Shown here one piece after another: positions 12,752 through 17,934 of a stretch of 64,000 bases of DNA (its first letter is position 1; each line of letters opens with the position of its first letter). This stretch comes from Candidatus Uhrbacteria bacterium. Lineage in GTDB: Bacteria; Patescibacteriota; Patescibacteriia; 2-12-FULL-60-25. The translations under genes were made by a program, and so were the position numbers. The stretch spans positions 248,001-312,000 of the forward strand of contig JACRQE010000003.1 of NCBI GenBank assembly GCA_016222815.1, read 5' to 3'. The notes under the pieces were generated by a model. It ran no database searches. It saw only the letters and a list, made by a program, of their open reading frames with translations, and was not told the origin of the DNA.

Positions 12752-14323
12752 ATGAACGCCTTGTCCAAAGGTATCGTGAATCAGCTGTTGAATGCGCTGA
12801 AAACACCTGGAAAACAGGAGATACCTGAAGAAGCCAGGATCAATGTCCACCACGCGGTCAGCCGTTTTTCTGTCCTCTACGAAAAGATCCGCAACGCCGT
12901 GGATTACAAGGATGAACACCTCCTCCGCAAATCTGCGATCAAGCGCATCTTGAGCCGCCAGCTGCTCCTCGAGAACGACTCGCAAGTCATTGCCTTGAAC
13001 CTGGTCCGCGAACTCATCGGCGCGCGTTATCTGCCGAACAACGAATTGCCCGACTATATCATCGGCCAAGTAGCTGTCAGGGTCGCCAAGTATCTGGCCA
13101 TCCAGCGGGCGAAGGTCGGTTCCGAAAAGCACTACGCCTGGTTGCGCGGTATCCTGTCCGTCGAAATCGAAGAAGTACTGGTGGATGCGACGCAAGAGAA
13201 GGCTCTTGTCACATTCCTCTACGAACGTCTGGCCGATCGCGTTAGGGTGCAGGGCGTGGCCATGGAGTCAGCCGAAGTCCGTCTCCAGCTCTACTTGGCG
13301 TGCTATCGCTGCCTGGTCAAAGCCGATGAGGAGACCCTGGGCTTCAAGCTTCTCCGCGCCTATCTGCCGGAGTGGCTTCGTCCCGAAGGTTGGCTGTCTG
13401 AACCTCAGGGCATGGCGGAACGCATGATCGGCGTGGAGAGGCGTATACGTTTGAGCCTTACCCATCCATTGGCCTTGAAGTTCCAGCGCGTAGTCAAACC
13501 CTGGGCTGTCTCTTTGAACGTTTTGCGCGAAGCTCTTCTTGAAAAGCCGGATGAAGCCAAAACTTTGTTGGATAATCCCGAGAGCTTGAACGCTGTCGTA
13601 TCCAGGATTGCCGAACGCCGCTACAAGCAGTCCAAGGCGAAATTGCGCCGTGGGGCGGTTCGGGCGACGATCTATCTCTTGCTCACGAAAATGCTCCTGG
13701 CGTTCGTCCTCGAAGTCCCGATGGAGTGGTATTGGTACGGCGGCGTGTCTTATGCCGCGCTCCTGATCAACATGCTATTCCCGCCGGTTTTCATGTTCAC
13801 GGTTTCGCTCTTCATCCGCATCCCGGGCAAGGACAATACGGACCGCATCAAGGGCGGCGTGAACACGCTCCTCTCGACCGAGGGTTTGCCGCTCCGCGAG
13901 ATCCGCATTCCGCCAAGGCGGGGAGGGGAGGCACGGATGCTCTTCACCCTGCTTTACGCGACAATGTTCCTCGTGACCTTCGGCGGCATCGGGCTCATCC
14001 TGGCCCAGTTGGAATTCACCTGGTTTTCGGCCGCCATATTCTACTTCTTCCTGTGCGTGGTCAGCTTCTTCGCCTTCCGTCTGCGCCAGAACGCCCGCGA
14101 GAACGTGATCGTCGAAGGCAAAGCCAGGCTCCATAACCTGGTCCTGGACTTCGTCGCCCTCCCCATCCTGCGCGCCGGCTCCTGGCTCTCCCAAAGCATC
14201 AGCCGCATCAACGTCTTCCTGTTCATCTTCGACTTCCTCATCGAGGCGCCGTTCAAGATATTCCTGACCGTATTGGAGGAATGGTTCTCGTTCATGAAGG
14301 AAAAGCGCGAAGAGCTCCAATAA
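12752..14323 (+). CDS. Large membrane protein of unknown function
   Basis: The 523-residue protein has a cytoplasmic-type helical N-terminal half (about 1-300) with many charged residues. The C-terminal half contains about five hydrophobic segments, including a stretch near 305-365 and one near 395-450. The end is amphipathic, with an LIEAPFKIFLTVLEEWFSF motif. I do not recognise the family. The start is fixed by a leaderless promoter. The stop is two bases before the TVP38-like gene, so the two are probably co-transcribed, and tgt follows in the same unit. Confidence 0.8.
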   Translation: MNALSKGIVNQLLNALKTPGKQEIPEEARINVHHAVSRFSVLYEKIRNAVDYKDEHLLRKSAIKRILSRQLLLENDSQVIALNLVRELIGARYLPNNELPDYIIGQVAVRVAKYLAIQRAKVGSEKHYAWLRGILSVEIEEVLVDATQEKALVTFLYERLADRVRVQGVAMESAEVRLQLYLACYRCLVKADEETLGFKLLRAYLPEWLRPEGWLSEPQGMAERMIGVERRIRLSLTHPLALKFQRVVKPWAVSLNVLREALLEKPDEAKTLLDNPESLNAVVSRIAERRYKQSKAKLRRGAVRATIYLLLTKMLLAFVLEVPMEWYWYGGVSYAALLINMLFPPVFMFTVSLFIRIPGKDNTDRIKGGVNTLLSTEGLPLREIRIPPRRGGEARMLFTLLYATMFLVTFGGIGLILAQLEFTWFSAAIFYFFLCVVSFFAFRLRQNARENVIVEGKARLHNLVLDFVALPILRAGSWLSQSISRINVFLFIFDFLIEAPFKIFLTVLEEWFSFMKEKREELQ

Positions 14324-14325
14324 AC

Positions 14326-15027
14326 ATGCGGAAATTCATCAGCGGTAACATCGGCAAGATCGTGGTTGGCCTCATCTGGGTCGTAGCTTTGATTTCGGCG
14401 TATCGTTGGTTCCTGGATTCCGACATTCCCATGCGCCAGGTCCCGCGCGCCCTCAAAGGCATCGTGGCATCATACGGTATTTGGGGGCCGGCGGTCATCC
14501 TCGGCCTGCATGCGGCGCGGAGCTTTTTCTTTTTGCCCAGTATGCCGCTCGTGCTGGTCGCTGGTTCGCTGTATGGCCCATGGTGGGGTATGGCGCTGAC
14601 CATCGCCGGCGACAATATCTCGGCCAACATCAGCTTCGTCCTGGGGCGCTTCTTCGGTCGCCGTTACGTCAAACAGACCGAACGTGGTTGGCTGAAGAAA
14701 TACGACGAACTTTTGACCCGCGATGGCTTTATGGCCGTATTGCTCATGCGTCTTCTGTATTTCCCTTTCGATGTGGTGAACCTGGGCAGCGGCCTGTCAG
14801 GTATCCCGTATCGTCAGTATCTGGTCGCGACGTTCATCGGCCTGATACCGGCTATCGTGACCTTCACCTTCTTGGGCGACGCATTCGTCAATCCGCGCGC
14901 TTTTATCGTCTTCGCCATCCTCTTCGTATTGACGCTGGTTTGCGCCTGGCTCATCAAGCGATCGCGTTGGGCCCAAAAGATGCTGCTCCACCCCAAACAC
15001 CATGACTCAATCTTCGAAGAGCTTTGA
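14326..15027 (+). CDS. TVP38/TMEM64 (DedA-superfamily) membrane protein
   Basis: The 233-residue protein has an N-terminal hydrophobic anchor and about five further membrane segments. The block LVLVAGSLYGPWWGMALTIA followed by ISFVLGRFFGRRYV and MRLLYFPFDVVNLGSGLSGI is the signature of the VTT domain. Bacterial members are thought to be lipid scramblases or undecaprenyl-phosphate flippases. The ATG at 14326 is chosen because it follows the previous stop by two bases. The last 26 bases overlap tgt in another frame. Confidence 0.85.
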   Translation: MRKFISGNIGKIVVGLIWVVALISAYRWFLDSDIPMRQVPRALKGIVASYGIWGPAVILGLHAARSFFFLPSMPLVLVAGSLYGPWWGMALTIAGDNISANISFVLGRFFGRRYVKQTERGWLKKYDELLTRDGFMAVLLMRLLYFPFDVVNLGSGLSGIPYRQYLVATFIGLIPAIVTFTFLGDAFVNPRAFIVFAILFVLTLVCAWLIKRSRWAQKMLLHPKHHDSIFEEL

Positions 15028-16144
15028 TCTGCTCCAGACCTCGATATCCTCCCGTGCCAGGCGCGGCGTTTTGCATACCTCCCACGGCGATCTGCAGACC
15101 CCATTCTTCATGCCCATCGCCACCAAAGGCGCGGTCAAGACGCTTTCGTCCTTGGATGTCGAAAACCTCGGCAGTCCCATCCTGCTCTCCAACACCTACC
15201 ATCTGTATCTCCGTCCCGGAGTCGATGTCTTCAAAGAATTCGGAGGCTTGCACAGGTTCATGTCCTGGGATGGCGCCATTCTGACAGATTCTGGCGGATA
15301 CCAGGTATTTTCGCTCGGGGCAATGCGCAAGATCACCGAGGACGGTGTGGTCTTCGCCTCGCATATCGACGGTTCGCGGCATGAACTCACTCCCGAAAAA
15401 TCCATCCAGATCCAGCAGGCCATCGGCAGTGATATCCAGATGGTATTGGACGAATGTACACCTTCCGGTTCGACTCTCGATTATCTGACGGACTCTGTCG
15501 CCCGTACCACGCGCTGGGCTGAACGCTGCAAAGTTGAATTCCAGAAGGGGAGGGAAGAATCGAATAATCCTGGTTCTTTGCTCTTCGGCATCAACCAGGG
15601 CGGGATCGTCGACGATCTTCGCGTCGAGCACGCCCGCCAGATGTCCAGGATCGGTTTTGATGGATATGCCATCGGCGGTCTGTCGGTCGGCGAACAATTC
15701 GTCGATTCATGCCGCATCGTGGCTGCCCTGGACCAGAACCTCCCGACAGATGCCGCGCGTTATTTCATGGGCGGTGCCCAACCGCATGAGATCGTGGAAT
15801 ATGTGAAACGGGGAGTTGATATGTTCGACTGCGTCCTGCCGACCAGGAACGCCCGCCACGGTCTGCTGTACCGTTTCCGCCACCATGACCTGTCGAGTCC
15901 CGACTTCTACGAAACCGTGCATGTGACCAATGAGCAATTCAAATACTCAAAGGAACCGCTCGTCGTAGCTGAAGAAAGCGATTCCGTTTCTCAAGAACTC
16001 TCACGTTATAGCCTCGGTTACGTCCGCCATCTTTTTACGGTCGAAGAAATGCTCGGCCAAAGGTTGGTTACCCTGGCCAATGTCCGGTTTTATCTTGAAC
16101 TTATGCGTCGCATCCGTTCGGCTATCGCGGACGGTCAGCTTTGA
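15002..16144 (+). CDS. tgt: Queuine/preQ1 tRNA-ribosyltransferase lacking the usual zinc cysteines
   Basis: The 380-residue protein matches bacterial Tgt along its whole length. Asp96 in TDSGGYQVFS, Asp150 in MVLDECTP, the GGIVDDLR loop and the nucleophile Asp276 in FDCVLPTRNARHG are all kept. The enzyme swaps guanine-34 of tRNAs with GUN anticodons for preQ1 or queuine. The zinc site, normally CxCx2C plus a distant His, is altered: the three positions read Ser328, Ser330 and Leu333, and only His343 remains. The ATG at 15002 overlaps the preceding gene by 26 bases, implying coupled translation. No queuosine-synthesis genes are in the window, so substrate may be scavenged. Confidence 0.93.
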   Translation: MTQSSKSFDLLQTSISSRARRGVLHTSHGDLQTPFFMPIATKGAVKTLSSLDVENLGSPILLSNTYHLYLRPGVDVFKEFGGLHRFMSWDGAILTDSGGYQVFSLGAMRKITEDGVVFASHIDGSRHELTPEKSIQIQQAIGSDIQMVLDECTPSGSTLDYLTDSVARTTRWAERCKVEFQKGREESNNPGSLLFGINQGGIVDDLRVEHARQMSRIGFDGYAIGGLSVGEQFVDSCRIVAALDQNLPTDAARYFMGGAQPHEIVEYVKRGVDMFDCVLPTRNARHGLLYRFRHHDLSSPDFYETVHVTNEQFKYSKEPLVVAEESDSVSQELSRYSLGYVRHLFTVEEMLGQRLVTLANVRFYLELMRRIRSAIADGQL

Positions 16145-16514: not shown

Positions 16515-16570
16515 TTGACGGAAATCGCGAAAGGTGATAATCTCGCCACTCGTTATCGTCATTCGACGAT
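16515..16570 (+). promoter_or_regulatory. Promoter and 5' hairpin of the 16603 gene
   Basis: TTGACG (16515-16520) and TAATCT (16538-16543) are 17 bases apart, with a TG one base before the -10. The transcript would start near 16550. ATCGTC (16555-16560) then pairs with GACGAT (16565-16570) around a four-base loop. The upstream in-frame ATG at 16534 lies inside the promoter and is excluded. Confidence 0.8.
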
Positions 16571-16602
16571 CAACAACGTTCCTTCCAAGGAGAAGAGGAC
16601 AC

Positions 16603-17934
16603 ATGCAGACCACGATCGTGACCAGCGATACCGATCCGCGGATTTCTGTTCCCGAAGAGAAACTTATCTATGCCGAACTCGACCTCGACGGCATCGATCC
16701 CGAAGGCGCCGAGATCTACCGCGAAGGCGCCAGGCTCTCCGAGTCGTACATCGCGCTGGAACCCGAACGCCAGGTCTACTGGAACGCCAATCCCTGCGTA
16801 CCGAAACTCTTCACGTGTATGGACGAGAAAGAGCAGGACACGGAACTGGCGCTCGGTTTGCCCAACGGGCTGGCGAACGTCTACCAGACGGCAGGCAACA
16901 AGCTCGGCGACACGAATCTGGTGCTCCGCCGCGAGTTCCAGTCCGGCATCGACCGCGCTTTCGCCGCCGGCAAACGGGTACTTGTCCTGTTCGTGACTCA
17001 TGAATCCAAGTGCGATCCGGACCACGATTCCTGCGCCGCCTGGTCGCATGACGGTCGAGCCGCGGACGAGAACGCCATTCGTCAGGTCCGTCGCTTCAAC
17101 CGCGACTACGTGGACCGCGGTGCCCATCTCGAAGTCGTCCAACGCCACGTCATTGCCGTGCGCCTCAAGTCGTATACCGATTTCGAGACACGCGTCTGGC
17201 ATGGCGAGACTGCTTGCATCGACCCGTTGGAGTATATGCCCCGGAACGGCGGTCCCATCGACGATAAGGCACTGTTTCCGAAAGTGCTGCGCCATTTCAG
17301 CGACGTTTTCCCGCAGCGTGACCCGCGTTTCAGCGGTCTCCATGCCCACGAATGGTCCGCGGTGTTGGGCCAGATGTCGCACATGTTCCTGGCGAATATC
17401 CATTTTGCCCATGACGTGGCGACCGGCAAGACCAAGTCTACCAAGGCTGGCCACCGGGGAAGGTGCGTGCTCGTCGGTCGTGGCGCCTGGGGCAACTTCA
17501 TCGAAGTGAACCGGTACTTCAAAGTATCGGACTTCACGCCCGACATGCTCCGCGAGTGCCGCATCGCCGGCAAGTATGTGGCCAAGAACGCCATCCTTGA
17601 CCTCATGCGGCGCGACGACACGCGGTTGTCCGTACCATTCCACGTCAACGTCCCGTATGACCTGATACGTCCCGGCGACCGCTGCAATTCCATAGCTCAT
17701 GCCGTGGATCTTGCCCGGGCTATCAAGCATGACTGGGACGAGAGGTTGTCCGGCCGGGAGCCACGCTTGCGGTTCCTTACCGAGCTCGTAGATGCGTTGA
17801 AGCACGATGATGTGAATCCTCTGGAAATCCCGTCCCTGGACATTCTGAGTCCAGACAGTTTCCGCTATTACGTCTCCGTCTCTCCGCGTGAAACCCGCCG
17901 GCCCGAACTCGTGGCCACAGGAGGTGATCTTTGA
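16603..17934 (+). CDS. ORFan protein with His/Cys-rich segment
   Basis: The 443-residue soluble protein has no signal peptide or membrane segment, and I do not recognise its family. A predicted strand VLVLFVTH leads into a His-Cys segment (HESKC, then DHDSC, then WSHDG) that could bind a metal or form an active site. A later HAHEW motif and IHFAH may supply more ligands. The C-terminal third contains a basic GRCVLVGRGAWGNF strand-turn. The start at 16603 is supported by GGAG and GAGG upstream and by the promoter position. A terminator follows. It is a single-gene unit between tgt and the DNA-repair genes. Confidence 0.75.
   Translation: MQTTIVTSDTDPRISVPEEKLIYAELDLDGIDPEGAEIYREGARLSESYIALEPERQVYWNANPCVPKLFTCMDEKEQDTELALGLPNGLANVYQTAGNKLGDTNLVLRREFQSGIDRAFAAGKRVLVLFVTHESKCDPDHDSCAAWSHDGRAADENAIRQVRRFNRDYVDRGAHLEVVQRHVIAVRLKSYTDFETRVWHGETACIDPLEYMPRNGGPIDDKALFPKVLRHFSDVFPQRDPRFSGLHAHEWSAVLGQMSHMFLANIHFAHDVATGKTKSTKAGHRGRCVLVGRGAWGNFIEVNRYFKVSDFTPDMLRECRIAGKYVAKNAILDLMRRDDTRLSVPFHVNVPYDLIRPGDRCNSIAHAVDLARAIKHDWDERLSGREPRLRFLTELVDALKHDDVNPLEIPSLDILSPDSFRYYVSVSPRETRRPELVATGGDL

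Follow-up and report, generated by a model that had tools for sequence, protein, structure and literature searches.

Can a bacterial tRNA-guanine transglycosylase (Tgt) remain a working enzyme after losing its structural zinc site? Tgt has been studied intensively as a tRNA enzyme and proposed as a drug target. Its zinc residues have been described as highly conserved (PMC4425180), and the zinc site as a part of the tRNA-binding scaffold (PMC6165067). The question is raised by a tgt gene at positions 15002-16144 (plus strand) of the window, that is, of the whole 64,000-nucleotide stretch of Candidatus Uhrbacteria DNA analysed here. The open reading frame is intact, with 380 codons in an open frame throughout, and its product scores 403.2 bits against TIGR00430, where the curated equivalog cut-off is 306.75, and 430 bits against PF01702; no other Pfam model matched. 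The TIGR00432 model of archaeal TgtA/ArcTGT gave 108 bits, under its cut-off of 350 and below the TIGR00430 score, and no DNA-modification context was seen among the checked genes flanking tgt. Identity as DpdA or ArcTGT was rejected, since TIGR00432 falls below its cut-off, TIGR00430 fits better and the only Pfam match is PF01702. The gene is the sole PF01702 match in its source, a 1.30-Mb, 98%-complete Patescibacteria genome, in which the same profile search found no second, zinc-type tgt; 37 of 38 relatives also have tgt.

The zinc ligands of the Zymomonas mobilis enzyme, which we take to be C318, C320, C323 and H349, serve as the reference, with the fourth lying 26 residues beyond the third Cys. 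Three Cys and one His are arranged in the same way in human QTRT1 (PMC6165067). When the window Tgt is read without gaps from the conserved YxxHL block, back from H343, the place of the CxCx2C knuckle is taken by residues 328-333 (SVSQEL; 15983-16000, plus strand), and the canonical Cys positions by Ser328 (15983-15985), Ser330 (15989-15991) and Leu333 (15998-16000), the same residues that had been named in a first-pass annotation of this DNA. Phmmer put the three-residue loop gap elsewhere, yet no Cys appears under any placement. All cysteines of the protein are at positions 152, 176, 237 and 277, with none after residue 277, and a compensating cysteine set, which that annotation had allowed for, is absent from the window Tgt. 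The annotation also held that His343 was the only ligand kept. The residue is indeed present (16028-16030, plus strand), but it corresponds to Zymomonas H333, which belongs to the dimer hot spot (PMC5395182) and is not a ligand; the true place of the fourth ligand, aligned with Zymomonas H349, is Ala359 (16076-16078, plus strand), outside the interval 15950-16040 to which the annotation was confined. Among 229 aligned Tgts, column 359 holds His in 168/168 zinc-type and 13/61 zinc-less sequences, and column 343 in 166/168 and 58/61, respectively. Column 359 is taken as that of the ligand His because it covaries with CxCx2C, whereas the His of column 343 is found in both classes. Early mutagenesis of the E. 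coli enzyme is said to have proposed the residue equivalent to His343 as a possible ligand. As judged by alignment, four of the four zinc ligands are lost in the window Tgt, and the family hallmark, C-x-C-x2-C ... H, is missing from it. Positions 328, 330 and 359 vary freely within the window's family, and the conserved replacement is Leu at 333: this third position (Cys3) is Leu in 21 of 23 family members and in 45 of the 61 zinc-less sequences. The fourth ligand (His4) is replaced by Asn, Ala, Val, Gln, Met, Ile or Trp among the zinc-less sequences.

Outside the zinc site, the catalytic and preQ1-pocket residues are intact. The catalytic aspartates, called intact at first pass, are all in place: Asp96 (15287-15289), equivalent to the general acid/base D102 of Zymomonas, and Asp276 (15827-15829), equivalent to the catalytic nucleophile D280, are invariant in 229/229 sequences, and Asp150 is found in the Asp150-Glu151-Cys152 segment (15449-15457; all on the plus strand), in which D150 aligns with the base-recognition residue D156 and C152 with C158. 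The base-recognition set of Z. mobilis, D156, Q203 and G230, is matched by D150, Q199 and G226. Residues D96, S97, D150, Q199, G225, G226, D276 and R282 are invariant in 61/61 zinc-less sequences, and the catalytic and pocket residues are identical between zinc-less and zinc-type sequences. Positions C158 and V233 of the Zymomonas enzyme are associated with specificity for preQ1 rather than queuine (PMC3660597); their matches in the window Tgt are Cys152 and Val229, as expected of an enzyme that would use preQ1. The aromatic hot spot of the Zymomonas homodimer, F92/W326/Y330/H333 (PMC5395182), is kept as F86, Y336, Y340 and H343, with Tyr in place of W326, as in many zinc-type Tgts; going by these residue equivalents, the dimer contact appears to be preserved.

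Modelling of the loop, proposed at first pass, gave a confident prediction of the canonical fold, a (beta/alpha)8 barrel with the inserted C-terminal subdomain. The AlphaFold model has a mean pLDDT of 94.9 (average of 81 for residues 321-330 and 96 for residues 331-340), from an input alignment that is mostly zinc-type and in a model that does not include metal and does not prove stability. A helix is predicted at 328-333, the position of the former knuckle. The best Foldseek match is Zymomonas TGT 1q2r (360 residues, 1.7 A, TM 0.90), and VIA-align gave a Z of 50.7, about 50 for Zymomonas and Thermotoga TGT. The model of an Akkermansia homologue that also has no CxCx2C (L055) reaches a pLDDT of 94.1. 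In six pairs from within the window's family, dN is 0.07-0.25 over the whole gene and 0.09-0.43 in the zinc subdomain, which evolves faster than the rest in some pairs, and synonymous change is saturated or nearly so (proportion 0.74-0.84). Because dN is low against saturated synonymous change, the family's tgt is under purifying selection, a little weaker in the zinc subdomain.

How widespread is the loss? We sampled Tgts from relatives, from about one genome per family across the class and likewise across the phylum, and from 80 named bacterial loci, the last picked by similarity to the window, so that proportions are no census of bacteria. Sequences in which one extra residue precedes H343 are misread when ligands are called by column, and for this reason a CxCx2C at any position within the 34 residues ahead of H343 was counted. 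The motif is absent from 23/23 sampled genomes of the window's family, which confirms a clade-wide loss. Across the class 22/65 families lack it, and in the rest of the phylum 5/58; it is also absent from Akkermansiaceae, two other Verrucomicrobiota, one Bacteroidota (Sunxiuqinia) and one Balneolota locus. To call the site almost invariant, as the first-pass annotation did, was thus too strong, with about one third of the sampled families of the class lacking it. Among named relatives, Candidatus Uhrbacteria are the closest to show a normal site, at 52-54% identity; at three loci of this sister group (L008, L043 and L162) the site is partial or missing and, by its sequence, looks like an intermediate.

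A tree of 229 sequences was built by a quick method without bootstrap from barrel columns 8-286 only, and therefore the zinc region cannot drive it; one odd outlier, L113, was excluded. On this tree the zinc-site trait needs about 19 changes, and shuffled labels need at least 48; the minimum is 12 changes once branches with SH-aLRT support below 95 are collapsed. Strict loss, of both CxCx2C and His4, needs at least 9 changes, and Cys3 to Leu at least 10. Treekit found 12 independent contrast pairs on supported branches; on average, His4 loss parallels Cys loss in 6.7 of the 12, and it never goes in the opposite direction. Parsimony alone is unable to separate gain from loss, and the changes are read as losses because the site is common to eukaryotic TGTs (PMC3660597). 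A single ancestral loss is not favoured, given at least 12 supported changes on a barrel tree made without bootstrap. The excluded L113 (G034, family f12) is a Tgt homologue that has diverged: its Cys pattern is scrambled (CHGWCC) and its YxxHL block altered, and its sequence suggests that it may be a different TGT paralogue. In three Akkermansiaceae loci (L055, L048 and L089), on which that clade rests, the knuckle is replaced by a conserved T/A-H-P-H-V motif and His4 is retained, possibly a swap of ligands towards a His-based metal site instead of zinc loss. Since the His-rich motif together with His4 could bind metal, Akkermansiaceae are not counted as firmly zinc-free.

The window genome also has queA and queH, and queH shares a contig with tgt at a distance of about 19 kb. 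QueC and Vut_1/QPTR were both not found in this genome; de novo preQ1 synthesis and QPTR salvage were rejected on that basis, in a search that had QueD, QueE, QueF and QueT outside its range. Because these two were not found, preQ1 is probably salvaged by another route. Neither an Rfam scan of the window, preQ1 riboswitches included, nor a tRNA scan returned a match. A gene for a VTT-domain (TVP38/TMEM64/DedA-like) membrane protein (14281-15027, plus strand; PF09335, 100.7 bits) overlaps the start of tgt by 26 nt and adjoins tgt in 13 of 22 loci of the window's family. In a genome without QueC and QPTR it is a speculative candidate for uptake of preQ1 or preQ0, with its link to queuosine drawn from this context; of the four family genomes with QPTR, three lack the VTT neighbour, too few for significance. 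Elsewhere, queA and rpmE (the gene of bL31) are divergently adjacent across much of the window's family (G000:C1:155737-156992, locus L334, in the window genome; also G003, G004, G008 and G013). Downstream of tgt, a 466-aa ORF (16534-17934) matches the carboxysome shell carbonic anhydrase catalytic domain at 19.6 bits, below the cut-off of 21.5, and is possibly a distant carbonic anhydrase.

What, then, became of the metal? An error of sequencing or assembly, or a frameshift in the zinc region, which the first-pass annotation had named as a way to be wrong, is next to inconceivable: the frame is open, the flanking YxxHLF and LxNxxFY blocks are in register, and the loss is common to 23 separately assembled genomes. 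It is also improbable that the site simply decayed by drift under relaxed constraint, leaving a weakened, destabilised or inactive enzyme. Many of the sampled losses do fall in Patescibacteria with small genomes, and the partial sites of the sister group could be seen as stages of decay; however, neither the pocket nor the catalytic residues change over 23 family members and all the zinc-less sequences, dN stays low where dS is saturated, nearly all relatives retain the gene, and the replacement is convergent (Cys3 to Leu) and not random. Somewhat easier to defend, if still unlikely, is the idea that other residues have built a replacement metal site, so that the protein would still be a metalloprotein. 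The family-specific hairpin insert at residues 293-303 (15878-15910, plus strand) has H294 and D296 in 23/23 members of the window's family and H307 accompanies them in 19/23; the conserved HPH and His4 of Akkermansiaceae would be another such case. Yet a zinc-type homologue with a full CCCH site, L003, has a hairpin much like it, H and D included, so the H294-x-D296 hairpin is not specific to zinc loss, and as a substitute metal site it was judged unlikely. Nor do the old positions suggest new ligands, as 328, 330 and 359 are free to vary in the family and the conserved residue at 333 is Leu, which is no ligand; zinc-less clade B likewise has Leu and Asn, and no new conserved Cys.

Selection by low zinc in small, probably host-dependent cells is a proposal about why the site was lost, and it does not conflict with a functional metal-free Tgt. 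Zinc limitation was the explanation offered at first pass; it is possible, but we regard it as doubtful and not established. In its favour, bL32 has lost its zinc cysteines in the window's family members that were read, and uS4 of the window genome (G000) is likewise zinc-less; in Verrucomicrobiae and most Bacteroidetes, kin of other lineages with zinc-less Tgt, most zinc ribosomal proteins are zinc-less as well (PMC3087516). On the other hand, bL36 is zinc-type in 27/27 genomes and in each family genome examined, as are bL31 and uS14 in all family members for which a complete protein was read, G000 included; genome-wide zinc avoidance was rejected, as these three proteins keep their ligands. 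In two other members of the class (G024 and G031), the Tgt site is lost and bL32 is still zinc-type, and the window genome has no zinc-type tgt duplicate to switch with. The bL32 of the window genome itself is locus L309 (G000:C8:22847-22993, minus strand), with its zinc cysteines lost. The bL32 proteins of L299, L306, L308 and others have a His/Asp-rich C-terminal tail (HDHDHDHAGHDH-like), which perhaps binds metal.

We therefore consider it quite probable that the window gene encodes a functional Tgt which inserts preQ1 with no structural metal, hydrophobic packing having replaced the zinc knuckle. The first-pass proposal of a zinc-independent variant is well supported by inference from the loss of four ligands with no cysteine set in their stead and the core kept, purifying selection, clade-wide and recurrent loss and a confidently predicted fold. 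Such an enzyme would exchange G34 for preQ1 in tRNAs with GUN anticodons, metal-free, using a barrel, catalytic Asp pair, preQ1 pocket and dimer hot spot that appear unchanged at the level of sequence and predicted fold. The knuckle that ties the C-terminal subdomain to the barrel would have become a short helix or turn, with Leu at the former Cys3 and Ala, Val, Ile, Met or Asn at the former ligand His, and apolar packing and hydrogen-bonding side chains would hold the subdomain in place; QueA and QueH would then complete queuosine on the tRNA. The replacement would have arisen repeatedly and become fixed in the window's family. It also seems likely, if a little less securely, that zinc-free Tgts arose convergently at least about 10 times (Leu for Cys3, and an apolar residue or Asn for His4), and that zinc is dispensable for preQ1 insertion.

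No report of a zinc-less Tgt was found in the literature searched, which is weak evidence, as most subscription journals were outside its coverage. Natural zinc-free Tgts with repeated Cys to Leu replacement offer a direct test of the role of the metal in fold, dimer and tRNA binding, and the verrucomicrobial versions, found in the gut genus Akkermansia, bring the question to a culturable organism.

Compared with known systems, the window protein is a Tgt orthologue that fails one family hallmark. With the bacterial enzymes of Zymomonas mobilis and E. coli (TIGR00430) it shares the barrel, the Asp pair, base recognition, the C152/V229 pair and the hot spot, and its gene is single-copy and accompanied by queA and queH; unlike the Z. 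mobilis enzyme, it has lost C318, C320, C323 and H349, with Leu333 and Ala359 at the places of Cys3 and His4, and its loop before the knuckle is longer. The eukaryotic queuine insertase QTRT1/QTRT2 belongs to the same superfamily, and QTRT2 is another deviating TGT; however, both of its subunits retain three Cys and one His (PMC3660597, PMC4425180), and the deviation of QTRT2 is the reverse one, as it lost catalytic residues, whereas the window Tgt keeps these and loses the zinc site. The TGT barrel is also common to archaeal TgtA/ArcTGT and DpdA, from which the window Tgt is set apart by its profile scores and by its checked flanks. Finally, the recurrent loss of a structural Cys/His zinc site in a protein that is itself retained is familiar from the C+/C- forms of the ribosomal proteins S4, L32 and L36 (PMC3087516); the window Tgt differs from these in having no paired zinc-type paralogue in its genome, and it extends the zinc/zinc-free theme of ribosomal proteins to a tRNA-modifying enzyme.
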